Shown here: one piece after another, positions 168 to 13,231 of the stretch | How positions within the stretch are numbered: position 1 is the first letter of the stretch | How the letters are laid out: every line of letters starts with the position of its first letter | Assembly (NCBI RefSeq): GCF_030531065.1 | Contig: NZ_JAUNOQ010000003.1 | Location: 62,001 to 126,000, forward strand | DNA: 64,000 bases | Direction of reading: 5' to 3' | DNA from: Phascolarctobacterium sp. | Lineage (GTDB): Bacteria > Bacillota > Negativicutes > Acidaminococcales > Acidaminococcaceae | Position numbers and translations under genes: made by a program | The notes under the pieces: generated by a model | The model's input: only the letters and a program-made list of their open reading frames with translations | Told to the model about the DNA's origin: nothing | Database searches by the model: none

Positions 168-2885
168 TTAAACCAATTGCCGTTTAACCAAAGAGGCGAA
201 TACCCCTCCCATATTTATAAGTTCATAATAACTGCCGCTTTCCACTATGCGCCCCTTGTCCATAACTAAAATACGGTCGACGTTTTGCACGGTACTCAAG
301 CGATGTGCAACGATAATTCTTGTCACACGCATAGCGTCTATACTATCGGACACCTTTTTCTGCGTCACATTGTCCAAAGCGCTGGTGGCCTCGTCCATAA
401 TGATAATCCTAGGATTATTTACCAAAGCACGCGCTAATAAAATCCTTTGCTTCTGCCCGCCGGAAATATTACCGGCGCCCTCGCTGATAATAGTTTCCAT
501 GCCCATGGGCATATTCATAATATCCTTATCCAGCCCTACCTTTTCTGCCGCCTTCCACGCGTCTTCCCTCGTCAAAGGCAGTGTGCCGACTATATTATCA
601 AAAATTCGCCCCGTTAAAAGCCGACCGTTTTGCAAAACCACGCCCATCTGCGAGCGCACCGACGTTATGTCGATGTCCTCTAAATTATATCTGTCATAAT
701 AAATCGCCCCATATGCAGGTTTTTCAAAGCCCAATAACAACCTTATAAGAGTGGACTTGCCGCAGCCGCTTGTCCCGACAATAGCCACCGCCTCTCCCTC
801 TTTAATATGCAGCGTTAAATTATCCAACACCATAGGTGCATTCTCGTCATACCTGAAAGATACTTTTTCTAAATCAATATCTCCGCGTAAAACGCCAACC
901 TCTATATTATCAGAAGCAACCTCCGGAACGGTCTCCAAGACGGGAACCAGTCGCTCAAGATTAGGTTTAATGTTTAACAAATCACTAATCGTTGGCACTA
1001 CAGAAATAATAACGGCATTAAAACCGCTAAAGGCGGCCTGGAAAGCTAAAAAGGTTGCATAATCCATATCCGGATTAGCGCCCTGGGCCGCCGCTTCTTT
1101 AATCCAATGCATGGTCATCGCATAAATTATCAGTGGCAATAAAAATCCCAAAACAGTATTTACCGCTTCAAGATAATTGCGCTGCCTGCGTTTTTTTACG
1201 TTCCAACGCCATTGTTCGCCGAATAATTTGGCCCATAAAGAATACGCTTGCTTTTCCGCGCCAGCTATCCTGAATTTATTCAAGCCGTTAAATATTTGTA
1301 AAACCAAAGCGGTTACCTTGCCGGATGCAATTACTATCTGCCTGTTTATACGCACAATATTATAATATATTACGCCTACAATCAGCAGATAGACAAACCA
1401 CAAGGCCAAAGCGACAACAGTAAGCTTAGCGCTGTAATACAGCATCAATGCCAAACTCCAGAAAGAAAACGCCATATTAAACACAGCGCCGATACTGCTT
1501 CCCATTAACGAGTCGCATATACCGTGAATACTTTCTATACGAGTAAAAAGCTCGCCCACTTGATATTTACGGAAAAAACTCATCGGCAAAGACAGCACCC
1601 GCAGCATAATACCGCTGCTTAATTTTATATCGACGCTATTCTTTATGCGCATGATGGCAATATTGCGCGCATAGCCAATCCCCGCCATAGTAAAAGCGGA
1701 AACCAACAGCACCTGCGTAACCGTGCTCAGCGCCCGCCGATCGTTAATCGGTATTATATCGCTAAAAATAGTTCCTGTAATCAACGGCGTAAGCAGCGGC
1801 ACCATGCCCGCAATAACGCTTATGAGCATAATCGCCGCAAGATCGTGCTTCCAGATATTCCGCAATACAAAGTTCAGCAAATCGCGCAGATTCAATTTAG
1901 GCTGCGTCAAAGCGGCGTAGCATACGAAAAAATTCTCCTGCAGTAATGCCGCTACGCTTTCGTCAACGCTAACCCCCAAAGGCTGGCTGGCGCTATAAGC
2001 TTTATAGCTTGTCGGCGTATCGGGCAGCAAAGCCGCCGGTTCGCCGGTATCCTTCCAAAATCCTATCAGCACGCCGCTATCGTTCCTATACCAAGCGTTA
2101 TCCGGCTTTACCAAGCGCACATATACCCCTAGCCTCCGCAGCATTTTTTGCAGCAAGGATACGGCGTCGCCATTACTGCTTTCCAAATCCTGAAATTTTG
2201 CTACAGGCAAGGCAAAATATCTTGCTACGGCTTTTACCACCAATAAAACAGGTTTACCGCCGTCTTCCAAAGCGTTGGCGGCATAAGCCAGCTCCCGCCG
2301 TTCCGTATGCAATAAATTAGCGGCGGCGGCAGCCATGAGATTATCCTGCTGTTGCGCGCGGTTAACAAAGCTGAGTCTGGCCTGCTCCAGCTTTGCTTTA
2401 AATTCTTGCTGCGCTGCCGCTGCTAAAAGCCGACGGCTGTAGCAAAACTCCAACCAAATAGTTTCTTCCGGTGTTTCGCCTGTCAAGACGTCCTCTGCCT
2501 GGGAAAGTCCGTTGTAGATATCGCTATAACGAAGCCAGCGGCAGTCTTTAGTACTATAAAACCATTGGTTCATTTTGCGCCGCAAATAAGTCAGCTTTTC
2601 TCTTTCAGGCTCCGCCTGCAAAAGCTCCGCCACGGTTATAAAGGCAATCTCGCAATCTTCCAAGGCGGATATGTACAAGCCTATTTCTTTATTGTCCGGT
2701 ACATTAAAAACCAAATGCCCTTCGCCGACCGTCATCAGATAAAGCTGCTGATAGTCTACGCCTTCTTCCCCGCGCGTCAAATAGACTTCCGCCTGCCCGT
2801 GTACGAGCTGGATAATCTGCTCCTCGCCGTACAGCGCGAAGCGCTTTCCCTGAGGCAATACTTCTTTTTTATAAAACTTAAACAC
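168..2885 (-). CDS. NHLM-type peptide export ABC transporter, ATP-binding/permease (ABC2)
   Basis: A 905-residue half-transporter of the NHLM (nitrile-hydratase-leader microcin) type, expected to sit in the inner membrane and help export the peptides encoded upstream. The first 90 or so residues resemble a cyclic-nucleotide-binding/cupin barrel. A long degenerate region follows, then a six-helix membrane domain from about residue 350. The ABC ATPase is complete: Walker A GTSGCGKST near 705, signature ISGGQKQR near 812 and Walker B IIIMDEATSALD near 830. Unlike its partner it has no C39 peptidase domain, which is the usual arrangement of the second NHLM transporter. It is the last gene of the operon, 12 bp after the peptidase-containing transporter. 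Confidence 0.9.
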   Translation of the reverse strand: MFKFYKKEVLPQGKRFALYGEEQIIQLVHGQAEVYLTRGEEGVDYQQLYLMTVGEGHLVFNVPDNKEIGLYISALEDCEIAFITVAELLQAEPEREKLTYLRRKMNQWFYSTKDCRWLRYSDIYNGLSQAEDVLTGETPEETIWLEFCYSRRLLAAAAQQEFKAKLEQARLSFVNRAQQQDNLMAAAAANLLHTERRELAYAANALEDGGKPVLLVVKAVARYFALPVAKFQDLESSNGDAVSLLQKMLRRLGVYVRLVKPDNAWYRNDSGVLIGFWKDTGEPAALLPDTPTSYKAYSASQPLGVSVDESVAALLQENFFVCYAALTQPKLNLRDLLNFVLRNIWKHDLAAIMLISVIAGMVPLLTPLITGTIFSDIIPINDRRALSTVTQVLLVSAFTMAGIGYARNIAIMRIKNSVDIKLSSGIMLRVLSLPMSFFRKYQVGELFTRIESIHGICDSLMGSSIGAVFNMAFSFWSLALMLYYSAKLTVVALALWFVYLLIVGVIYYNIVRINRQIVIASGKVTALVLQIFNGLNKFRIAGAEKQAYSLWAKLFGEQWRWNVKKRRQRNYLEAVNTVLGFLLPLIIYAMTMHWIKEAAAQGANPDMDYATFLAFQAAFSGFNAVIISVVPTISDLLNIKPNLERLVPVLETVPEVASDNIEVGVLRGDIDLEKVSFRYDENAPMVLDNLTLHIKEGEAVAIVGTSGCGKSTLIRLLLGFEKPAYGAIYYDRYNLEDIDITSVRSQMGVVLQNGRLLTGRIFDNIVGTLPLTREDAWKAAEKVGLDKDIMNMPMGMETIISEGAGNISGGQKQRILLARALVNNPRIIIMDEATSALDNVTQKKVSDSIDAMRVTRIIVAHRLSTVQNVDRILVMDKGRIVESGSYYELINMGGVFASLVKRQLV

Positions 2886-2897
2886 GTTATTGCCTCC

Positions 2898-5051
2898 TCA
2901 ATTTTCCACCAGCACGCGATAAAGACCCGCTTGCGCCATCAGCTCGTCATGAGTGCCGCGCTGTATTATCTTGCCCTTATCCATAACGATAATTTCGTCG
3001 CAATCGCGAATCGTACTCAACCTATGGGCTACAATTAAGCAGGAACAGCCGCGCCTGCGGATATTGTCCAACACTCTTTTTTCCGTAAGCGGGTCTAAAG
3101 CGCTTGTCGCCTCGTCCAAAACCAGCATTGCCGGATTATGCACCAAAGCGCGCGCCAGCTCCATTCTTTGCCGTTGCCCGCCGCTGAAATTCTTGCCGCC
3201 TTCGTCTACAGGCGCTTCATAACCGCCGTCAAGCTGCATAATAGTTTCGTCGATTTCCGCGTCTATCGCGGCTTCGCGCACATCCTTCGGCGTAATATTT
3301 TCGTCAAATAAGGTTATATTATCGCGTACCGAACCGGAAAAGAGAAATATTTCCTGATTAACAGCCGCGACGCCGTACGAAAGCAAATTTCTATTTAACT
3401 GTTGCCGTTCATAGCCGTCAAATAAAATTTTCCCGTCCCACGGTTTTTCTTCCCCTAAAACTAATTTTGCAACCGTTGACTTACCGCAGCCGCTGCCGCC
3501 TACCAAAGCGACCCAACGCCCCGGCCGCAAGTGCAAATTAAAATTTTCCAGTAACGGCGCAGATAATTTACTGTAGCCAAAAGTAAGGTTTTCCATACGC
3601 AGCTCGCCGCTAAAATAATCCTTCTGCGCCGTATTTTCCGAAGAATTATATAAGTAATCGTCCTTAGGGTAATTATAAATATCGTCCAAACGCCTCAGCA
3701 TCATTTCGGTATTTTGCAGCCCCTGTCCTAAGGACAGCAATTTATTAACAGGCTCAGAAAAATTTCCCATAAGCATTTTAAAAGCTATAAAAGTACCGGC
3801 TGATAAAACTCCGTCCATGATTTGAAAGCCGCCGATAGTCATAATTAAAGCCACGTTAACGCCGCCCAAAAATTCCGGCAGCAAGCTTACGTTTTGACTG
3901 ATAAACTGAATCTTTTGGCTTTCCTTCATCATTTTATTTTGCGCCCCGGACCATTTAGCAAAAAAGTCCGCTTCATTGCCGTTAGCCTTTAACGTATCGA
4001 TGGACTGCAAGCCGTTGATGGTAATGGCCTGCAAAACGCCGTTTTCCTGCAGCATGAGCATGGCTTTTTCCATAATAAAGCTGCGCATTTTAAACAAAAC
4101 GGCAATATTGAGAGCGCTGAACAACAAGCCAATCAGCGTAAGGGTTATGCTGTACTGGAACAGCAGCGCCAAATAAAAAATAGCAATAAACGTATCTATA
4201 ACGGCAGTAGCTGCCTGCCGCGTCAGCATATCGGCTACCGATAAATTAAAGCCTATTCTGGAAGCTATTTCTCCCGCATGACGCTGCTGGAAAAAGCTGC
4301 CTGGCAAATGCAAAATATGCCACAAGAATCTTCCGGAATCCTGCAAGGTCAGCTTCGTTTGCCAGCGCGTCAGGCTCCATGAACGCAGACCCACTAAAAA
4401 AGCCTGCACTATACCCGTAAACGCCAACGCCAATAAAACGTTAAAATTCCAATCGGCATGACGCATAGTGATTACGTCGTCTAAAAACGTTTCGCTGATT
4501 GCAGGTATAGCTAAACCCGGCACGACCATGCACAAGCTTAAAATACTGATAAACAACGTCGCTTTGCGATCAGCTAACAGCTTCTGCCCTAAAACGCGAC
4601 GTATATTATATTTTTTGCCGCCTGGCTTAAACGCCGCATCGGGCTCCATGTGCAGCGCGATACCGGTATACGAATAGCAAAATTTTTTAAAATCAATCGT
4701 TCTGTGCCCCGCCGCAGGGTCGTTAAGATAAACCTTATCACCCTCTATTCCCTCTAAAACTACAAAATGATTAAATTCCCAATGCAAAATTGCGGGCCAC
4801 GGTTTATCGCGCAAGCTTTCCGCCTTCCAGCGAAATCCGCTCGCCTTCATATTATAATTTCTCGCGGCTTTTACAATGTTCAGCGCCTTACTTCCGTCGC
4901 GGCCGATGCCGCAGTCCTGACGTAATTGCTCCAATGGCACCCACAAGCCGTAATAAGCCAAAACCATAGCTAAAGACGCGGCGCCGCATTCCACAGCCTC
5001 CATTTGCAGAATGGACGGCGTTTTAACATGTTTTCTTTTTTTATCAGTCAT
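2898..5051 (-). CDS. NHLM-type C39 peptidase-containing ABC transporter (ABC1)
   Basis: Bifunctional exporter that would cut precursors after a double glycine and move the released part across the inner membrane. The N-terminal C39 peptidase shows its catalytic Cys in VECGAAS near residue 22, the His in FNHFVVLEG and the Asp in NDPAAG. A membrane domain follows, then an ATPase with Walker A GGSGCGKST near 517, FSGGQRQR near 624 and LVLDEATSALD near 647. I chose the ATG at 5051 (717 residues). It overlaps the end of the preceding adaptor gene by a few bases, which is typical of translational coupling. An upstream in-frame ATG at 5111 would add 20 residues unlike the family. The double-glycine precursors in the same operon are its obvious substrates. 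Confidence 0.92.
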   Translation of the reverse strand: MTDKKRKHVKTPSILQMEAVECGAASLAMVLAYYGLWVPLEQLRQDCGIGRDGSKALNIVKAARNYNMKASGFRWKAESLRDKPWPAILHWEFNHFVVLEGIEGDKVYLNDPAAGHRTIDFKKFCYSYTGIALHMEPDAAFKPGGKKYNIRRVLGQKLLADRKATLFISILSLCMVVPGLAIPAISETFLDDVITMRHADWNFNVLLALAFTGIVQAFLVGLRSWSLTRWQTKLTLQDSGRFLWHILHLPGSFFQQRHAGEIASRIGFNLSVADMLTRQAATAVIDTFIAIFYLALLFQYSITLTLIGLLFSALNIAVLFKMRSFIMEKAMLMLQENGVLQAITINGLQSIDTLKANGNEADFFAKWSGAQNKMMKESQKIQFISQNVSLLPEFLGGVNVALIMTIGGFQIMDGVLSAGTFIAFKMLMGNFSEPVNKLLSLGQGLQNTEMMLRRLDDIYNYPKDDYLYNSSENTAQKDYFSGELRMENLTFGYSKLSAPLLENFNLHLRPGRWVALVGGSGCGKSTVAKLVLGEEKPWDGKILFDGYERQQLNRNLLSYGVAAVNQEIFLFSGSVRDNITLFDENITPKDVREAAIDAEIDETIMQLDGGYEAPVDEGGKNFSGGQRQRMELARALVHNPAMLVLDEATSALDPLTEKRVLDNIRRRGCSCLIVAHRLSTIRDCDEIIVMDKGKIIQRGTHDELMAQAGLYRVLVEN

Positions 5052-6003
5052 TGCGCAACCAATTGCTGAGCTTGCCGAAAACTTTGCTGATAGGAGGCTT
5101 TCTTTCGACAATTATCATCCCGCTGTAAACGCTGCCGGGAGTAACCATAATATTATTATCAATCACCGACGACCATAAATATCCGCTGCTATTATCCTTA
5201 TCACGAATCAATTCCACATGGATTTCCATCGCCGCTCCGTCGCATTTTTCCAACGCCACGTCCGCCAGCGCTTTGTTGCCTAACGTCTTGACCATACGCT
5301 CCGCGCTCACGGGATATTCCGAAGTTTCGCGTACTATCCCCAGCAAGCTACCGTATTCCGAAGCGTCGATATCGTTAGGCTGCATTTGCACAACCATGCC
5401 CGGCTTAACCTTTTTGCCGCCTGCAGCCGGAGCATACATTACGCCGTGCATATCGTTGCTCTTCTGGTCGCGGCGAACGGAAAATAAATCCGTTCCTGCG
5501 CCGACAACAGACCCATCGGTTATTTTTATTTCGCTGACGATGCCGTCGAACGGGCTGTACACATAACGGTAAGTATCGTATTTTTGCGTAATACTATCGT
5601 ATTGCGCTAAGCTCGACATAGCGTCGGTATTTGATTTTGCCAGGCCGATACTATATTCGGCCATAATTTTATCCTCCGCCAAATCCGGCTGCTGCAATAC
5701 CGCCAGCAAATCTCCCGCCTTAACGCGCGCGCCTTTATGAACATAAATTTTTTCTATCTGTCCCGAACTCAAACTTTCTACATTAACTATACCGCCGGAA
5801 TCGACGAGCATACCAAAGCCGTTGACTTTTTCGGCAATAACGCCGAAGACAGACCACACGCAAACGGATAATACCAATAACGCTACCGCAAGCAAAGCCG
5901 CCCAGCCGCCCAAAGGAATAATCGTCAGCAGGGAATCCATCTGATCCGGATTGCGTAAACGCTCCAAGGCCTGACTGCTAAAAAGCTTCTCTGATTCCTT
6001 CAC
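5044..6003 (-). CDS. NHLM-type HlyD-family secretion protein
   Basis: Periplasmic adaptor (membrane fusion protein) of 319 residues. It has one N-terminal membrane helix (about 30-52), followed by a lipoyl/barrel-sandwich half (GQIEKIYVHKGARVKAGD). The matching second half, SPFDGIVSEIKITDGSVVGAG, comes after an unusually short connector, so there is little or no alpha-helical hairpin. This compact form is characteristic of NHLM-system adaptors. It overlaps the genes on both sides (26 bp with the upstream adaptor, 8 bp with the peptidase transporter), so the export genes form a tightly coupled block. In a diderm cell it would link the ABC transporter to the periplasm or an outer-membrane channel encoded elsewhere; no TolC-like gene is in the window. 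Confidence 0.88.
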   Translation of the reverse strand: MKESEKLFSSQALERLRNPDQMDSLLTIIPLGGWAALLAVALLVLSVCVWSVFGVIAEKVNGFGMLVDSGGIVNVESLSSGQIEKIYVHKGARVKAGDLLAVLQQPDLAEDKIMAEYSIGLAKSNTDAMSSLAQYDSITQKYDTYRYVYSPFDGIVSEIKITDGSVVGAGTDLFSVRRDQKSNDMHGVMYAPAAGGKKVKPGMVVQMQPNDIDASEYGSLLGIVRETSEYPVSAERMVKTLGNKALADVALEKCDGAAMEIHVELIRDKDNSSGYLWSSVIDNNIMVTPGSVYSGMIIVERKPPISKVFGKLSNWLRND

Positions 6004-7165
6004 GCCTGTACACCTCCACCTTCGCGCCTTCCTGCAAGCCTTCCTTGCCGGAAATTATAACCTCGTCGCCTTCCTCAAGCCCACTTAAAATTTCTGTATA
6101 TGTATCGTTAGCAGCGCCCGTAGTTACCTTTCGTAACTGCAGGCGTTTGTTTTCATCCACAATAAACGCTGCCTTTCGCTCATCGTCGATATTGAAAAGC
6201 GCTTTATTATCTACGCACAACGCTTTATAGCTAATAGCGTCGACTATTTTTACATCTCTATATACGCCCGTTTCCAAAAGCCCGGCTCTGTTGTCAACCT
6301 TCCAAGTGATAGTATAAATAGGAGCCTCCACATCTAAAGGCGGTTCTGTTTCCGCCAACGCAAGCTTAACTTTATTTTCTATATTCTGCCCCTGCAGCTT
6401 ATATGAAGAATCAAAACCTTTTTCCAAAAAATCCGCTTCATTAAACACTAAATATTGTTCCGATTCGGACAAGCGTAAATTCTTGACGTCCCTATAGGAA
6501 AGATTTTTTTGAAAATAAAGCTCGCGAAAATCTCCGATTAAAGCGACGGACTGACCCTTCTGCACATAATCGCCTTTTTCGGCGTATAAGAGTAGCGCTT
6601 CGCCGTCCAGCGGAGCTGTAACCGCCTGATTGCCGTGCATATTTTTTAATTGCTGGTATTCCGCTTCCAAAACCTCTACCTCGGTGGCGGCGGCTTTAGC
6701 CGCCGCTATATAAGAATCGTATTCCGAACGCGAAACTGCGCCAACCTTCACCAACGTCGCCCTGCGCTCCTTATCCGCCTCAACCTTGACATATTCCGCC
6801 TGCGCCGCCGCTATCTTGCTTTGCAGCTTGGACAATTCCAAATCCATATCGTCGTTATGGATTTTATATAAAACCTGCCCGCGTTTTACCGCTTGGCTCT
6901 TTTGCACATAAACGTCCGTCACCCTGCCTTCAACGCGGGCGACGACGTCCGTCATGGTTTCGGAAAATAATTTTATACTGCCATAGCTGTACTGAGGCGC
7001 CAACATCCTGTAGCCTACTTCGGCTACTGTCAACGAATGAGCGCGTTCCTCCATCATTTTAGCTATGTTGTTTTCACTTTTAATATTCAAATAAAACCCA
7101 TAAACAACGAGCGCAGCGCTCAACGCAATAACGCCGCCCACCGCGTAAAGAAAATATTTTTTCAT
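5978..7165 (-). CDS. HlyD/RND-type periplasmic adaptor protein
   Basis: A second adaptor, 395 residues, with an N-terminal membrane anchor (about 5-25). A lipoyl half-motif near VEGRVTDVYVQKSQAVKRGQ is followed by a coiled-coil hairpin (about 130-195) and the second lipoyl half, TAPLDGEALLLYAEKGDYVQKGQ. Beta-barrel and membrane-proximal domains end in ILSGLEEGDEVIISGKEG. This is the full-length adaptor architecture, in contrast to the compact NHLM adaptor that follows it, so this export block has two different adaptors. It begins about 90 bp after the last short double-glycine peptide. Which transporter it pairs with cannot be told from sequence. Confidence 0.85.
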   Translation of the reverse strand: MKKYFLYAVGGVIALSAALVVYGFYLNIKSENNIAKMMEERAHSLTVAEVGYRMLAPQYSYGSIKLFSETMTDVVARVEGRVTDVYVQKSQAVKRGQVLYKIHNDDMDLELSKLQSKIAAAQAEYVKVEADKERRATLVKVGAVSRSEYDSYIAAAKAAATEVEVLEAEYQQLKNMHGNQAVTAPLDGEALLLYAEKGDYVQKGQSVALIGDFRELYFQKNLSYRDVKNLRLSESEQYLVFNEADFLEKGFDSSYKLQGQNIENKVKLALAETEPPLDVEAPIYTITWKVDNRAGLLETGVYRDVKIVDAISYKALCVDNKALFNIDDERKAAFIVDENKRLQLRKVTTGAANDTYTEILSGLEEGDEVIISGKEGLQEGAKVEVYRREGIREAF

Positions 7166-7208
7166 AATTCCAATCCTTAAATCCCATGGCTTTATTCCGG
7201 TGTTTTAA

Positions 7209-7254
7209 CTATTCGGCCGTTTTCCAAACTACCGGTCGTTCAAGCCCGGCTCTT
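7209..7254 (-). pseudogene. Out-of-frame remnant of the conserved peptide tail
   Basis: Directly after the TGA of the 75-residue peptide, the next reading frame continues and ends in ERPVVWKTAE followed by TAG. The same type of ending (PVIWKTED, SVIWETKN) closes the other two short peptides in frame. The simplest reading is that the 75-residue gene has suffered a frameshift between about 7261 and 7290. A base-calling error would look the same. Confidence 0.55.
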
Positions 7255-7482
7255 TCACCATTCTCCTGAACGTAAAAGGTTTTCCACCTTTTTCAAGTTA
7301 CTATCCTCCAACTCCTTTTTCATTTTGTTTAACATAAAAGTATCCGTCGAGTAGCTGCCGCCTAAGCCCGCTCGTTTCACCCCGCTACATTCTATACTGC
7401 CGCCGCCTGCTACCGCTTCCATTTCTTTTTCCGTAAGCTGTTCATTTTTGGCATTGGCGATAAATTCTTTGTTCCCCTCCAT
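7255..7482 (-). CDS. Double-glycine leader peptide precursor A (C-terminus probably frameshifted)
   Basis: Small precursor of 75 residues. Residues 1-28 form a leader, NKEFIANAKNEQLTEKEMEAVAGG, nearly identical to those of the two neighbouring short peptides and ending in the double glycine recognised by C39 peptidases. The rest (one Cys, several Gly, then a charged helix-like stretch) is unlike the other two cores. The reading frame stops at SGEW, and the conserved V-V/I-W-K-T ending lies just beyond in another frame. The start follows an AAGGA-type ribosome site. It is the last of seven precursor genes before the export genes. Function of the mature peptide is unknown; bacteriocin or signal are both possible. 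Confidence 0.75.
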   Translation of the reverse strand: MEGNKEFIANAKNEQLTEKEMEAVAGGGSIECSGVKRAGLGGSYSTDTFMLNKMKKELEDSNLKKVENLLRSGEW

Positions 7483-7512
7483 AATGGCCCTTCCTTTCGT
7501 TTATACTTTTAT

Positions 7513-7689
7513 TTAATTCTTGGTTTCCCAAATTACCGACTTTTTCGCTTCCTCCTCTAGTATCCTAATCAGCTCTTTGGGTTTCTGAAACTCCAGCTTA
7601 TAGAGGCTGCCGCCTGCTACCGCTTCCATTTCTTCGTTCGTAAGCTGCTCGCTTTTAGCATTAGCGATAAATTCTTTGTTCTTTTCCAT
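7513..7689 (-). CDS. Double-glycine leader peptide precursor B (58 aa)
   Basis: Short gene read directly from the minus strand. The 58-residue product begins MEKNKEFIANAKSEQLTNEE and continues to the double glycine at residues 26-27. The leader is almost identical to those of peptides A and C. The 31-residue core has no Cys and is Leu/Glu/Lys-rich, ending AKKSVIWETKN. The start has an AAGGA ribosome site 8-9 bases upstream. The K-S-V-I-W spacing at the end equals the Lys-x3-Trp spacing found in streptide, which is suggestive because a radical SAM enzyme sits in the operon, but no crosslink can be claimed. Too short for many gene callers. Confidence 0.8.
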   Translation of the reverse strand: MEKNKEFIANAKSEQLTNEEMEAVAGGSLYKLEFQKPKELIRILEEEAKKSVIWETKN

Positions 7690-7717
7690 AATAATCCTTC
7701 CTTTCGTTAATATTTCT

Positions 7718-7873
7718 TTAATCCTCGGTTTTCCAAATTACCGGCTTTTTCACTTCGCTCAAGAAAGCTGGCGCCTTAACTCTCAACTTTAAGTCGCTAC
7801 CCCCTGCTACCTTTTCCATTTCCTCGTTCGTAAGCTGCTCATTTTTGGCATGATCGATAAATTTTTTGTCCAT
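7718..7873 (-). CDS. Double-glycine leader peptide precursor C (51 aa)
   Basis: Short gene read directly from the minus strand. It encodes 51 residues: MDKKFIDHAKNEQLTNEEME, then a double glycine at residues 24-25, then a 26-residue core ending VKKPVIWKTED. It has an AGGAGGTAATGA-type ribosome site directly upstream of the ATG. Leader and C-terminal motif are shared with precursors A and B, while the middle of the core differs, so these three form a paralogous family. It lies 21 bp after the last crystallin-like precursor and is probably on the same transcript. The product is likely cut and exported by the C39 transporter of the operon. Confidence 0.8.
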   Translation of the reverse strand: MDKKFIDHAKNEQLTNEEMEKVAGGSDLKLRVKAPAFLSEVKKPVIWKTED

Positions 7874-7893
7874 AATTCATTACCTCCTTAACC

Positions 7894-8526
7894 CTAAAAA
7901 TCCCTCGCCACGAATTTTCCACAGCCGGGAGCGTGGATATCGCATTTATTGCATTTCTTGCCGCCGGCCACCGCCAGCAAATCATCGTCCGTTAATTCTT
8001 CTTTGATGCCGAAGTTAATGCGCACGTCGTCCTGTCCCAAAGTAAACAGCAGAACCTTAGCGTATCCGTCAATTTTTTCGTCGACTACGCATTCCTCGTT
8101 TTCAAAAATTCTTACGGCGTGTCCATCCTCAACATTACCTGCAAACACCGCGTAAAAACCGCGCGGTACGATTACTTTATCGAACTCTTTTAATTCCGCC
8201 GCCATGTATTCGCCCTCCGGCAACGCTTTAACAGCCTCGCCTTTGATTCCTTGGGCGTAAGTTTCTATCACCGCTAATTTAGGAACAAAAGGAATTTTTA
8301 TGTCCGCACAATCCTTATCGACGGTAAAATTTTTGCCGCTGCCGTCGGCATTTTCATAAAACGCCGCTCGCGTAAAATCCGCAACCTTAACGGAACCGAC
8401 GACGGAAAAATCTCCGGCGCTATACTCGCCGCGTTTTAAGCGATTGCAATTTCCCTGATAAAAAGCTTTAGCAAAAATTTGCACAAAGCTCGCGCTTTCG
8501 CTGCTGTTTATAAAACGCATTGCCAC
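7894..8526 (-). CDS. Beta/gamma-crystallin-like peptide precursor 1 (core C-x2-C-x6-C)
   Basis: A 210-residue precursor. Residues about 13-72 and 84-150 each read like a beta/gamma-crystallin domain: YQGNCNRLKRGEY and FYENADGSGKNFTVDKDC in the first, IKGEAVKALPEGEY and VPRGFYAVFAG in the second. A leader-like stretch follows (FGIKEELTDDDLLAVAGG, glycines at 188-189) and then a 21-residue Lys/Cys tail with CNKC and PGC. The tail is the likely mature peptide and the double glycine the C39 cut site. It is the most diverged of the three two-domain copies. No signal peptide is seen. That the crystallin-like part works as an oversized leader or carrier is inference; it could also be a separate product. 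Confidence 0.8.
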   Translation of the reverse strand: MAMRFINSSESASFVQIFAKAFYQGNCNRLKRGEYSAGDFSVVGSVKVADFTRAAFYENADGSGKNFTVDKDCADIKIPFVPKLAVIETYAQGIKGEAVKALPEGEYMAAELKEFDKVIVPRGFYAVFAGNVEDGHAVRIFENEECVVDEKIDGYAKVLLFTLGQDDVRINFGIKEELTDDDLLAVAGGKKCNKCDIHAPGCGKFVARDF

Positions 8527-8555
8527 TCCCCTCCCTAAATTTTATTTTTCAAACG

Positions 8556-8996
8556 TCATCTGGTTACAAGATGTTCGATGCAAAAACGATAGCTGTCATC
8601 CAGCGGTCCTTTATGCTCGGCGCATAAGGAGGGGCAGTCGGTAACAAATATTCTGCAGCTCTCCTTGCGTTTGCCGCCAGCCACAGCTAATAAATCCTCG
8701 TCGCTCAGTTCTTCCTTAATACCTAAATCGATATGTATACCTCGCTTTCCCAGGTTGAATATTAAAATTTTATTATATTCGTCAAGATGCGAATCGATTA
8801 CGCACGCTTCATTTTCAAACACCCTGACCTTATTCTTATCCTCTTGGTGAGCAACAAACGCCGCATAAAAACCTCGCGGCAATAATATTTTGTCAAACTG
8901 TTTTAGCTCTTCCGCAAGGTATTCCCCTTCCGGCAACTGTATTATATTTTCTCCGCGCACGCCTTTAGCGTAACTGTCTGCCTCGTAAACTAACAT
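8556..8996 (-). CDS. Single-domain beta/gamma-crystallin-like peptide precursor 2 (38-residue core)
   Basis: A 146-residue paralogue that lacks the first crystallin-like domain of its neighbours. It starts directly at the second one (MLVYEADSYAKG, LPEGEY, LPRGFYAAF, VRVFENEACV). It keeps the leader end LGIKEELSDEDLLAVAGG (glycines at 107-108). The core is the longest and most divergent: 38 residues with four Cys. A good AAGGAG ribosome site 6-7 bases before the ATG indicates a genuine gene and not a broken copy. It shows that one crystallin-like domain plus the LSDEDLLAVAGG segment may be enough for processing. Confidence 0.78.
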   Translation of the reverse strand: MLVYEADSYAKGVRGENIIQLPEGEYLAEELKQFDKILLPRGFYAAFVAHQEDKNKVRVFENEACVIDSHLDEYNKILIFNLGKRGIHIDLGIKEELSDEDLLAVAGGKRKESCRIFVTDCPSLCAEHKGPLDDSYRFCIEHLVTR

Positions 8997-9082
8997 ACGT
9001 TGCTCCTTATTTTTCAGCAGGCGAAAAATAGCCAGAGCGACGAACTAATACATCCGCCGCTTGGCCACGCCGTCAGTATATC

Positions 9083-9727
9083 TTATAACCCTACCTCGAT
9101 ACCAGTACGGTTACCGCAGAAAGTGCCGCTGCCGGCGCCCGCTTTAATTTTATTGCCGCAGCCCTTGCCGCCGGCCACTACCAGCAAATCGTCGTCCGTC
9201 AATTCTTCTTTGATGCCGAAATTGATGCGCACGTCGTCCTTACCTAAGGTGAACAACAAAACCTTAGCGTATTCGTCAACCTTGCCGTCAATAACGCATT
9301 CTTCGTTTTCAAAAATTCTTACGGTGTGCTCGTCCTCGTTGTTACCGGCAAATACTGCGTAAAAGCCGCGCGGCACGATTACCTTATCGAACTCTTTTAA
9401 TTCCGCCGCCGTATATTCTCCCTCCGGCAATTCTTTGGCAACGTCGCCCTTAAATCCTTTGGCATAAGTTTCTACCACCGTTAATTGCGGCGCAAAAGCT
9501 ACCTCCGCCGCAGCGCAGTCCTTGTCCACGATTACGTGCTTGCCGCTGCCGTCGGCATTTTCATAAAACGCAACGCGCGTAAAATCAGCAACCTTAATTG
9601 AGCCTACAGCCTTAACGTCGTCGTATTCGCCGCGCGCCAGCTTGAGCGCTTCGCCCTGGTACCCAGCCGCCGCAAAAATTTCCGCAACGCTTTCCGTCGC
9701 CACCGTGCTCACAAAATTCATTTTCAT
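9083..9727 (-). CDS. Beta/gamma-crystallin-like peptide precursor 3 (CGN...CGN core)
   Basis: A 214-residue precursor very similar to precursor 4 up to the double glycine (residues 186-187). Domain one covers about 13-71 (GYQGEALKLARGEY, FYENADGSGKHVIVD). Domain two covers about 82-148 (LPEGEYTAAELKEF, VPRGFYAVFAG, RIFENEECV). The leader end reads LTDDDLLVVAGG. The 27-residue core is Gly-rich and contains two CGN motifs (KGCGNKI and TFCGNRT). High identity to precursor 4 in the crystallin part, with an unrelated core, suggests recent duplication with diversification of the tail. It has a GAAGG ribosome site nine bases before the ATG. Confidence 0.8.
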   Translation of the reverse strand: MKMNFVSTVATESVAEIFAAAGYQGEALKLARGEYDDVKAVGSIKVADFTRVAFYENADGSGKHVIVDKDCAAAEVAFAPQLTVVETYAKGFKGDVAKELPEGEYTAAELKEFDKVIVPRGFYAVFAGNNEDEHTVRIFENEECVIDGKVDEYAKVLLFTLGKDDVRINFGIKEELTDDDLLVVAGGKGCGNKIKAGAGSGTFCGNRTGIEVGL

Positions 9728-9811
9728 AGCGCTTAACCTTCTTTCAATACAAAAATTTTTCAGAAAAACATTATCCTACATCCGTTGATAACAGAACCGG
9801 GGAAAATAAAA

Positions 9812-10459
9812 TTATTTTTTCACATTGCCAATGGAATCGTTACCGCAGGAATCAAACGGATTGCAATCGCCCATCTCAATATCGTTGCCGCAGGCTTTGC
9901 CGCCAGCCACTGCCAGCAAATCGTCGTCCGTCAATTCTTCTTTGATGCCGAAATTGATGCGCACGTCGTCCTTGCCCAAAGTGAACAGCAAAACCTTCGC
10001 GTATTCGTCAACCTTGCCGTCGATAACGCATTCTTCGTTTTCAAAAATTCTTACGGTATGCTCGTCCTCGCTGTTACCGGCGAACACCGCATAGAAGCCG
10101 CGCGGCACGATTACTTTATCGAACGCTTTTAATTCCGCCGCCGTATATTCGCCCTCCGGCAATTCTTTAACGGCGTCGCTCTTAATTCCTTTAGCGTAAG
10201 TTTCTACCACCGTTAATTGCGGTGCAAAAGCTACTTCCACCGCAGCGCAGTTCTTGTCCACAACGACGTGCTTGCCGCTGCCGTCGGCGTTTTCATAAAA
10301 CGCAACGCGCGTAAAATCCGCAACCTTGACGGAGCCCACGGCTTTGACGTCGGCGTACTCGCCGCGAGCCAGCTTTGCCGCCTCTCCCTGATATCCTGCC
10401 GCTGCAAAAATTTCCGCAACGCTTTCCGTAGCTACTGTGCTCACAAAACTCATTTTCAT
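9812..10459 (-). CDS. Beta/gamma-crystallin-like peptide precursor 4 (CGN...C...CGN core)
   Basis: First precursor after the maturase, 215 residues. Residues 13-71 and 82-148 fit two beta/gamma-crystallin domains by their alternating G/Y-x-G...GEY and V-x-FYEN patterns. Residues 150-187 (FTLGKDDVRINFGIKEELTD onward to the double glycine) look like the docking and cleavage part of a RiPP leader. The 28-residue core has three Cys (ACGN, GDCN, DSCGN). The 42-bp gap to the radical SAM gene, with an AGGAGG site in it, suggests the two are expressed together. I know of no described RiPP precursor with crystallin-like domains; that judgement is from memory only. Confidence 0.8.
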   Translation of the reverse strand: MKMSFVSTVATESVAEIFAAAGYQGEAAKLARGEYADVKAVGSVKVADFTRVAFYENADGSGKHVVVDKNCAAVEVAFAPQLTVVETYAKGIKSDAVKELPEGEYTAAELKAFDKVIVPRGFYAVFAGNSEDEHTVRIFENEECVIDGKVDEYAKVLLFTLGKDDVRINFGIKEELTDDDLLAVAGGKACGNDIEMGDCNPFDSCGNDSIGNVKK

Positions 10460-10501
10460 ATTCTTGTGCCTCCTTATAAAATATTTATAAATAGAACACG
10501 G

Positions 10502-11875
10502 CTAAACAAATTCTTCCGCTTGCGCCATATTCTCATTTATCGCGTATAATTGCAGCCGCTCGCGTAAATTATTTTTCAAGCTGCGGCAGGACGCGCCATA
10601 AGCTCCCGTTTTATCAGCGCAGCCCCCTGCGCACTGCGGCAGCGCTATACATTCGTAGCATTCCTCATATTTCAAGAGCGGCCGCGTCAGCCAATTCTGA
10701 TAAAGCTTGTTCTCATAAATTTTTTGGCAATCGCCGATATTGCCGACGCTCAGCTTGGCGTCGGATACCGTGTTCCAGCATTTATGCACACTTCCGTCCG
10801 GCAAAATCACAAAGCTGTTTCTGCGCACAGCGCCGCACAAGCTGCCCAATCTTATCGGCAGCCCCGGCGTATGTAATTTTAAAGCGACGGCTTTCTTTAA
10901 AAGTTTCAGCTCCAACGCGCTAAAATTTTCCAAGCTCATTACTTCGTCCGCATTTAAACCGGCCGTCCCTATTCCGATATCCACGGGCGCAAAATAAACG
11001 TTAAAATTTTCGCGCCCGCCAAAGCCCTGCTCGCTTAAATAGAGCAATAAATTTTCTATACTGTCCTTATTGCGTTGGTCAATATTCACTCTGATATTAA
11101 AATTCAGCTTGTTTTCAAGAACTACATTCCGCAAATTCTCCATAATCGCGGCAAACGTAGCTCCGCCTCCTTTTAAATAACGGCGGCTGTCGTGCGCCTG
11201 CGCGTCTCCGTCTATGGTTATCTGCACGGAACTGATTTTGCATTGCGCCAGTCTGTCCGCTACCGCAAACGTCAAGTTGAAACCGTTCGTTACGATACTC
11301 GCGCTGTAATCGCAGCCGTTATTTTCACATAGAGATAATATTTTCCCTGTCAAGCTTTCGATAACGGGCACGGCCAGCAAAGGCTCGCCGCCATACCACG
11401 TAATATGCACGCCTTTTTTATCGTAAATATTATTCCCAATGAAATTAAGAACTTGCTCCTGCACTCTTTGCTCCATAGGTTTGCTTGCGTCATGCAATCC
11501 CTGAAAGCAATAATCGCAGGCAAAATTGCAGGCCATGGTAGGAGCGACGGTTAAAGAAAGCGCTTTTTCCTTTTTATTTTTTAAGATAGCAATAGCTTGC
11601 TCGAAAAGTTTTAATTCGTCGCTGGCTTTTTTCAGGACGAACATTTCATGGATAAGGCTATCCAAAAACTTACTTAAATAAAGCTGGCTTGGCGCAAGCC
11701 TCGCCGCCTCCCGCTGGCTGCCTCCGCCCGCCAATAAATCGTAAATTGCTTTTTCCAAAGCCGTCCAGCGTTTGCAAACGCCGCCCATGCCGCTGTAAGC
11801 GAGCGCTCCGTCCTGCAGCGGCAACAAAATATTAAACTTCGACGGCTTATATAAATTGATATTGCGGTAAATCAT
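10502..11875 (-). CDS. Radical SAM/SPASM peptide maturase
   Basis: A 457-residue radical SAM enzyme, expected to reduce SAM and modify the precursor cores of this operon. An N-terminal region of about 100 residues could contain a peptide-binding (RRE/PqqD-like) domain. The canonical CxxxCxxC for the [4Fe-4S] cluster is at Cys116, Cys120 and Cys123 (ACNFACDYCFQG), followed by WYGGEPLL. The C-terminal SPASM region has many Cys (GSLCGAVRR, HKCWN, EECYECIALPQCAGGCAD, ASCRS) for auxiliary clusters. This architecture is typical of thioether-forming sactipeptide and ranthipeptide enzymes and of sulfatase maturases. No sulfatase is present, while Cys-rich cores lie just downstream. Bond type and residue specificity cannot be read from sequence. 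Confidence 0.9.
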   Translation of the reverse strand: MIYRNINLYKPSKFNILLPLQDGALAYSGMGGVCKRWTALEKAIYDLLAGGGSQREAARLAPSQLYLSKFLDSLIHEMFVLKKASDELKLFEQAIAILKNKKEKALSLTVAPTMACNFACDYCFQGLHDASKPMEQRVQEQVLNFIGNNIYDKKGVHITWYGGEPLLAVPVIESLTGKILSLCENNGCDYSASIVTNGFNLTFAVADRLAQCKISSVQITIDGDAQAHDSRRYLKGGGATFAAIMENLRNVVLENKLNFNIRVNIDQRNKDSIENLLLYLSEQGFGGRENFNVYFAPVDIGIGTAGLNADEVMSLENFSALELKLLKKAVALKLHTPGLPIRLGSLCGAVRRNSFVILPDGSVHKCWNTVSDAKLSVGNIGDCQKIYENKLYQNWLTRPLLKYEECYECIALPQCAGGCADKTGAYGASCRSLKNNLRERLQLYAINENMAQAEEFV

Positions 11876-11913
11876 TCTGCAACTCCTATCCGCCTCAAAA
11901 ATTTCTTACGAGC

Positions 11914-12822
11914 TTATTTTGCTGTTCTATCTTTATAGAAGGTAGTTAATTTTATTTCTTTGCTGCCCGGGAACGAAACCGGCAGCTTCCCCAACATATT
12001 GGTAAGTTTTTTATCGGCCGCGTCAATATTAAAAATTACTTTCTTTATTTTGTCAGGCGAGGCGGCTACATATTCTAAAGTTTTCAGCAAAGTCCAGACG
12101 CCCACGCCGGTATTTTTATAGCTGTCCAAACAAGCGCGGCAAGATACTTCCGCCACCTGAGGATTATTTGGCAATTCCGTTAAAGCGAGATAACCCACCG
12201 TTTTCTCATTTTTAATTACTAAAAAGCTTCCCTCGTCGATTCTCTTACGCCTTTCGCTAAACGGATCCAGATATGAGGGATAAGCTTTTCCTATTTCATC
12301 TTTAATTTGCCGTAAACTTTCCGCGTCGGCTTCGCAGAAATTTTTTATAACGAAGCGGCGTTTTTTCATAAAAGAATCCAATCTGTCGCCTTCTTCAGCC
12401 ATATATTTATGAAAAACGCTTCTGGTATGAGGCGTACTGGTGTTGATAACGCTGATGGATTCTTTTTTTACGTAAAACCCTGACTTTTCAACAACCCGGC
12501 GCAAAGCAGCGTTTTTCTCCACAACAAATTCCAAAGCAACAGAGCGGCAGCCTTGAGCGAAAAAATTTTCCGCAGCATAAAGCAAAAGTTTTTGCGCAAT
12601 CCCCTGATTACGCATTTCTTTCTTGACAGAAATATATTTAATCATGCCTACGCCATCGGCGCTTATTTCGCCAAAAACCGCTCCGCCATATTGTTCGCAA
12701 TCGTCTACGGCAACAAAGACTTCGCACTCGCCCTTTAAAGCAATTTTTGCATAATACAGAAACAAATTGCTTTCATCAAAAGCCAACGCTTTTCCTTTTA
12801 TTAAATAATTTTGCAAAATCAT
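11914..12822 (-). CDS. Tandem GNAT-family acetyltransferase
   Basis: First gene of the peptide operon, 302 residues. Residues about 1-130 form a complete GNAT domain with the acetyl-CoA motif NQGIAQKLLLYA and the C-terminal GFYVKKE strand. Residues about 150-295 are a second, weaker GNAT-like fold (FVIKNFCEADAESLRQIKDE, DSYKNTGVGVWTLLKTLEYV). Possible roles are N-acetylation of a peptide product, which could protect the producer or finish the peptide, or an unrelated acetylation. The operon position favours a link to the peptides. The ATG is preceded by an AGGTG-type site, and the promoter lies about 65 bp upstream. Confidence 0.8.
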   Translation of the reverse strand: MILQNYLIKGKALAFDESNLFLYYAKIALKGECEVFVAVDDCEQYGGAVFGEISADGVGMIKYISVKKEMRNQGIAQKLLLYAAENFFAQGCRSVALEFVVEKNAALRRVVEKSGFYVKKESISVINTSTPHTRSVFHKYMAEEGDRLDSFMKKRRFVIKNFCEADAESLRQIKDEIGKAYPSYLDPFSERRKRIDEGSFLVIKNEKTVGYLALTELPNNPQVAEVSCRACLDSYKNTGVGVWTLLKTLEYVAASPDKIKKVIFNIDAADKKLTNMLGKLPVSFPGSKEIKLTTFYKDRTAK

Positions 12823-12886: not shown

Positions 12887-12915
12887 ATTATAACACGCTT
12901 GTCCCCCCCCGACAA
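12887..12915 (-). promoter_or_regulatory. Promoter of the peptide operon with a G8 tract in the spacer
   Basis: On the minus strand TTGTCG (12910-12915) and a perfect TATAAT (12887-12892) are separated by exactly 17 bases, seven of them G continuing a run of eight. The G run is enclosed by a perfect 7-bp inverted repeat (GCTTGTC/GACAAGC), which may be an operator. A homopolymer inside the spacer means slippage would change the -35/-10 distance, as in known phase-variable promoters. Confidence 0.75.
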
Positions 12916-13078
12916 GCTTTTACTACGCAAAAAATCCTTACTTTCTCTAGCTTGTCGTCATTTCATTTTTCCTAAGCCAACATAATGAAAACCTCACATA
13001 CAAGTACAAGCATAAAATATTTTGCAAACCGCATGGCGTCCTGTTTATTTTTAATCTTTGGCAATAAAGGTCAGCGTT

Positions 13079-13154: not shown

Positions 13155-13231
13155 GGCCTCATAGCTCAGCTGGATAGAGCGTTTGACTACGAATCAAAAG
13201 GTCGCAGGTTCGAGTCCTGCTGAGGTCACCA
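13155..13231 (+). tRNA. tRNA-Arg (anticodon ACG)
   Basis: A 77-base tRNA including an encoded CCA. The acceptor stem GGCCTCA pairs with TGAGGTC; the D arm, the anticodon loop CTACGAA closed by TTTGA/TCAAA, and the T arm GCAGG-TTCGAGT-CCTGC are all present. The anticodon ACG reads CGN arginine codons after A-to-I editing. It lies on the strand opposite to the neighbouring genes and is the insertion-prone landmark next to the peptide operon. Confidence 0.95.

Follow-up and report, generated by a model that had tools for sequence, protein, structure and literature searches.

A putative RiPP biosynthesis and export operon with beta-gamma-crystallin-type leader domains in Phascolarctobacterium sp., and its relatives in other bacteria

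Gene content and borders of the operon

The window, by which we mean the whole stretch of 64,000 nucleotides of Phascolarctobacterium sp. DNA that was analysed, carries on its minus strand, from position 12822 to 168, genes for a GNAT, a radical SAM/SPASM enzyme, four large and three short precursors, two periplasmic adaptors and an NHLM ABC pair. An ORF check of the window gave the same coordinates as the first-pass annotation, and intergenic gaps across the operon are at most 89 bases. The first gene (11914..12822) encodes a tandem GNAT of 302 aa, the N half of which scores 58.7 bits to PF00583, while the C half matches weakly (E 8e-4). It is followed by a TIGR04463-like radical SAM/SPASM RiPP maturase of 457 aa (10502..11875), the precursors and the export genes. 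The latter encode an RND-type periplasmic adaptor (5978..7165; TIGR01730, 175 bits against a cut-off of 94.9), an NHLM HlyD-type adaptor (5044..6003; TIGR03794, 220 bits against 156), NHLM ABC1 with a C39 peptidase (2898..5111; TIGR03796, 945 bits against 853) and NHLM ABC2 (168..2885; TIGR03797, 756 bits against 709). The export genes belong to the NHLM type, with TIGR03796, TIGR03797 and TIGR03794 all over their cut-offs; for ABC1 a start near 5051 is more likely than the one at 5111. These NCBIfam and Pfam profile matches support the initial description of the locus as a RiPP-type operon with a SPASM maturase, GG precursors, a tandem GNAT and NHLM export.

A sigma-70-like promoter is predicted on the minus strand ahead of the GNAT gene, at 12915-12887 (TTGTCG-17-TATAAT, extended TG), the position where it had been proposed. 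A perfect 7-base inverted repeat (GCTTGTC-N7-GACAAGC, 12897-12917) extends across the promoter spacer and is a possible operator or regulator site; one site was found, against 0.18 expected when up to 2 mismatches are allowed. An additional GACAAGCT half-site lies near 12957. One transcript for the whole operon would be plausible. The window contains the end of the operon. Past position 168, the next gene is Na+/solute-symporter-like and has a promoter-like site of its own (104-76), and a ribosomal-protein region comes after it. The cluster had been called complete and self-contained; it is indeed complete within the window, but neither an outer-membrane channel nor an obvious immunity gene lies within it.

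Crystallin-type precursors

The four large precursors, CL1 to CL4, are all encoded on the minus strand. CL1 (9812..10459) consists of a crystallin-type leader, LTDDDLLAVAGG and the core KACGNDIEMGDCNPFDSCGNDSIGNVKK; CL2 (9083..9727) has the same architecture and the core KGCGNKIKAGAGSGTFCGNRTGIEVGL, and CL4 (7894..8526) has the core KKCNKCDIHAPGCGKFVARDF. CL3 (8556..8996) has no first crystallin domain and keeps all the rest, namely the second domain, LSDEDLLAVAGG and a 4-Cys core, which suggests that the first domain is dispensable. In the full leader, residues ~12-88 form a beta-gamma-crystallin domain and ~89-160 a second beta domain; a short helix with an invariant LxxxxL motif and VAGG comes next, after which the core is disordered. 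Single precursor sequences match Pfam Crystall weakly (E ~0.007); a profile from ten relatives matches Protein S (6e-8), clostrillin (6e-4) and lens gamma-crystallins (~1e-3). An AF2 model of a large precursor has a pLDDT of about 86-95 over residues 11-120, and of about 88-95 over 11-100, and superimposes on solved crystallin domains with a VIA Z of up to 11.9 (rmsd 1.8, 75 residues). The description of these precursors as crystallin-like was therefore well chosen: by profile and by predicted fold, the first domain is a true beta-gamma-crystallin domain with the double Greek-key fold, the second domain being scarcely covered by the structural matches. The canonical calcium motif [ND][ND]xx[ST]S, read from the sequences, is not kept, CL1 having VKAVGS where Protein S has NNTISS.

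The leaders of CL1 and CL2 are 93% identical and their cores 37%, and the leader dN/dS is 0.035/0.463, or ~0.08, a value indicative of strong purifying selection. These identities and this ratio are what a constrained leader followed by a variable core usually shows. The cores of the large precursors are short, variable and Cys-containing. Their Cys spacings (9,6 / 14 / 7,4,14 / 3,7) do not include the Cys-every-fifth pattern of CefA (NF038108), which in relatives reaches 5,5,5,5,5. The first residue past GG is Lys in all four. No match to the NHLP leader model TIGR03793 was found in CL1 or CL4, and the short peptides reach only about 14 bits against its cut-off of 50.9.

Short GG peptides

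Three loci for short GG peptides follow on the same strand. Peptide 1 (7718..7873) has no Cys and the C-terminal sequence KKPVIWKTED; peptide 2 (7513..7689) ends in KKSVIWETKN. At the third locus (7209..7482) the leader ORF runs from 7482 to 7255, and a tail, ERPVVWKTAE, that aligns with the two others lies in a different frame, with a stop at 7209. All of the seven precursor loci reported earlier are thus present, but since the leader and conserved tail of peptide 3 sit in different frames, six are intact and one is broken. The designation of the short peptides as KxxxW is weak: it applies to only two intact copies, the broken third carries R at the position of the K, and neither the short-peptide matches nor the best 25 matches of the maturase included an NCBIfam model for KxxxW peptides or their maturases. 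The first-pass annotation also held that two unrelated precursor families share one C39 transporter. An LxxxxL/M-xxVAGG-type segment is found in 17 of 17 peptides examined, from both precursor types, so the use of a single C39 exporter is unsurprising.

The short peptides may not be substrates of the maturase. We give an even chance to the proposal that they share only the exporter, being class II bacteriocins or signals without modification, and that the maturase serves the crystallin precursors alone. Both intact short cores are without Cys, the short leader resembles generic GG leaders of other genera (in same-class genomes, other matches to the short-peptide profile are weak or confined to the leader region), and beside related maturases no short-peptide relative was seen. 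Yet their genes sit between the large precursors and the exporter in a single operon, and the motif V[IV]W[KE]T, conserved in their tails, is a candidate modification site.

The maturase and its history

The window maturase scores 344 bits against TIGR04463, below the curated cut-off of 525, and sits in a clade with the enzyme of Hwanghaeella (L035), a TIGR04463 member at 553 bits. The CxxxCxxC motif and the SPASM cysteines are conserved, and a search of the N-terminus with Pfam for a PqqD/RRE domain gave no match. Among solved structures, the one closest to the maturase profile is 5wgg (E 3e-31), which is CteB, a thioether-forming maturase. In a 14-row tree the window enzyme falls within the Synergistota clade (support 98/98) on a long branch (1.37). 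Six same-class maturase matches from among L008-L028 (31-36% identity), included in the tree, sit in another clade.

The cluster was not found in family or genus mates of the window genome. A tRNA-Arg(ACG) gene lies on the plus strand directly upstream of the cluster, at 13155-13231, and may mark an insertion point, since those genus mates whose YfcE region was read carry other genes at that place. Given the placement of the maturase among Synergistota and the absence of the cluster from genus mates, lateral acquisition followed by a change of substrate is the simplest reading; the cluster looks to have been acquired from a Synergistota-like source and then altered. A B12 methyltransferase and the Cys-every-fifth core appear to have been lost after acquisition, and no TIGR03975 B12-rSAM enzyme scores above cut-off in the window genome.

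Related clusters in other bacteria

A scan of genome contigs with the window maturase gave five relatives. Two crystallin-type precursors lie beside the maturase in each of L033 (Synergistales), L034 (Synergistaceae) and L036 (Candidatus Alectryocaccobium), and L071, of the same phylum as L034, also has a pair. L072 has one, at a contig end, and in L037 (Synergistaceae) the contig edge falls within such a precursor. The relatives' cores are mostly of the Cys-every-fifth type, some with weak matches to the CefA model, and a TIGR03975 B12-rSAM methyltransferase is present in L033, L036, L037, L071 and, in part, L034. At E <= 1e-4, and with plain secreted crystallin proteins left out, the leader profile had matches in 3 of the 185 Synergistota genomes and in 1 of the 392 from the order of L036; a first leader profile, run on 380 genomes of the class to which the window belongs, matched one, its own. 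Leader-profile matches in L062 and L064-L066 were left uncounted as plain secreted crystallin-repeat proteins. Plasmid and viral collections gave no precursor match. Two further features were seen in these contigs. In L071 (5980-9616), the stretch that separates the GNAT/B12-rSAM pair from the crystallin precursors encodes a Nif11-like peptide and two more radical SAM enzymes of the SPASM type; near the Synergistaceae cluster L037 (157-2714), one gene encodes a TolC-type outer membrane protein and another a phosphatidylglycerol-lysyltransferase-like protein with a GNAT fold.

The combination of genes had at first been described as not known. It is not unique, with crystallin-type precursors, a TIGR04463-like maturase and a tandem GNAT together in Synergistota (L033, L071) and in a Lachnospirales-type MAG (L036). 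Maturase homologues that occur without these precursors, named in the first-pass annotation as evidence against the grouping, were found only among more distant relatives (Hwanghaeella 36%, Methylomagnum 38%). The partner of the Hwanghaeella maturase (L035:11568-12545) has an SCP2-like domain (E 0.0024, below the cut-off), LSDDQLEAIAGG and a 17-Cys core. That core ends in CGINVIPLVPGT, resembling the b-type precursors of Synergistota. On the Methylomagnum ishizawai plasmid NZ_AP019784.1, the gene for a CefA protein of 679 aa (L093:5873-7912) adjoins those for TIGR04463 and TIGR03975 enzymes; the protein has ricin-B, beta-gamma-crystallin (55 bits, over cut-off) and trefoil domains. It can also be read as a ricin-B lectin, two crystallin domains and fascin/FRG1-like domains with a long Cys-every-fifth tail. 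These two cases indicate that substrates of the TIGR04463 clade bear varied folded domains. Since the Methylomagnum protein has no VAGG before its Cys-every-fifth core, a crystallin domain may not in every case be a removable leader.

The last observation bears on the proposal that the exported product includes the crystallin domains, the operon secreting small crystallin-type proteins with a modified Cys tail, in which GG is merely an export signal or stays uncut. The Methylomagnum protein joins ricin-B, crystallin and trefoil domains to such a tail, and plain secreted-looking crystallin proteins exist (L062, L064-L066). We nevertheless consider this improbable for the window, where, as in the Synergistota and L036 precursors, LxxxxL-xxV[AV][AG]G directly precedes every core, a C39 exporter is encoded in the same operon, the crystallin domain is without the calcium motif of Protein S, clostrillin and Methylomagnum, and no signal peptide is evident on the crystallin precursors.

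Tandem GNAT

A tandem GNAT of ~300 aa is encoded in all four clusters with adequate flanks (the window, L033, L036 and L071), which represent three lineages. A [KR][NK]TG[VA] motif is found in the C half of these proteins; the window protein has KNTGVG there, shared with its relatives. An AF2 model (mean pLDDT 47) was set aside. GNAT identity between clusters is 21-25%, a divergence that, together with the lack of a known substrate, could point to a self-immunity or housekeeping acetyltransferase rather than a maturation enzyme. Many GNATs are detoxifying enzymes, which also favours a role outside maturation. Such a role is the less probable one, however, given that the gene recurs in every well-flanked cluster across three lineages and that GNATs have an established role as maturases in clusters of the NHLP type (selidamides, PMC9505594).

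Proposed pathway and its significance

We assign a probability of roughly 70% to the reading of the locus as an operon for RiPP biosynthesis and export whose leaders contain folded domains, in which maturase, GNAT and C39 exporter act as follows. The TIGR04463-like maturase would recognise the leader, probably through the second domain and/or the LxxxxL helix, and modify the core, most likely by forming Cys thioether links; its chemistry is not safely transferable from relatives, because Cys is no longer regularly spaced in the cores of the window. The tandem GNAT would probably acylate the product, with the Lys after GG or the N-terminus as speculative candidate sites. The C39 domain of ABC1 is expected to cut after GG, and ABC1 and ABC2 with the two adaptors would export the large-precursor cores and the short peptides, probably via a TolC-type channel encoded elsewhere.

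Some decay has occurred in the cluster, since CL3 is truncated and short peptide 3 frameshifted. That the cluster as a whole is decaying and non-functional seems very improbable to us: the absence of a B12-rSAM enzyme and the long maturase branch could be counted with those two lesions as signs of it, but the enzyme and exporter genes are all intact, the catalytic Cys of the maturase are conserved, and selection on the CL1 and CL2 leaders is strongly purifying. The low leader dN/dS and the recurrence of the gene set in other phyla indicate that the cluster is more than a chance assembly.

The operon is apparently an undescribed variant of SPASM-type RiPP clusters, its combination of genes rare rather than unique. 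More tentatively, and with doubt outweighing confidence, it may stand for a RiPP class that extends over three or more bacterial lineages and in which a core behind a crystallin-domain leader is crosslinked by a radical SAM enzyme and acylated by a tandem GNAT, TIGR04463-clade maturases acting on varied folded-domain substrates (crystallin, SCP2-like, lectin). RiPP leaders are usually short and unstructured; a rigid leader domain has, to our knowledge, been described as an exception in proteusins. If the proposal is true, a second, unrelated fold has been placed on the same LxxxxL-GG segment, and a RiPP leader can be fronted by stable domains of more than one kind. Crystallin leaders would then offer a natural test of the role of the rigid part, CL3 being a natural deletion of the first domain inside the window itself.

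Comparison with known systems

Literature on crystallin together with RiPPs or bacteriocins, judged by titles and counts, held chance mentions only and no description of a crystallin leader; none was found for TIGR04463 or Cys-every-fifth, nor any description of clusters of the L033/L071/L036 type. The latter share with the window crystallin-type a/b precursors with LxxxxL-V[AV][AG]G, a TIGR04463-like radical SAM enzyme and the tandem GNAT, and L036 also has NHLM-type ABC genes. They retain the B12-rSAM methyltransferase and Cys-every-fifth cores, and one of their precursors is of a b-type with an end like NVIPxxP, whereas the precursors of the window are four a-like ones and the short GG peptides. 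Clusters with TIGR04463, CefA and TIGR03975, such as that of Methylomagnum, are alike in maturase clade, in folded domains before a Cys tail and in crystallin domains. In contrast to these, the maturase of the window scores under the TIGR04463 cut-off, there is no TIGR03975 enzyme or Cys-every-fifth core, and a GG cleavage site, tandem GNAT and NHLM export are present in addition.

Ranthipeptide/SCIFF maturases (CteB, PapB) resemble the system through 5wgg, the nearest solved relative, and through Cys-containing cores, but their leader type differs, and thioether formation in the window is a prediction; ranthipeptides are marked by a thioether from Cys to a beta or gamma carbon. Selidamides are marked by a fatty-acyl group that a GNAT places on Lys or Orn. 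In selidamides, a GNAT maturase and a precursor with a long leader are adjoined by peptide exporters (PMC9505594), as in the window, which has a radical SAM enzyme instead of a lanthionine synthetase or arginase and for which acylation is likewise predicted. Proteusins have a large rigid leader domain, an LxxxxL helix, GG (PMC10858898) and NHLM export, and the logic of a structured leader with LxxxxL is established for them (PMC10858898). The window would work like a proteusin system and is not a member of it, because its leader has a beta-gamma-crystallin rather than a nitrile-hydratase-like fold and gives no TIGR03793 match over cut-off. The rigid part of the proteusin leader is dispensable for one modifying enzyme (PMC10858898), and CL3, without its first domain, suggests a parallel dispensability in the crystallin-type leaders.
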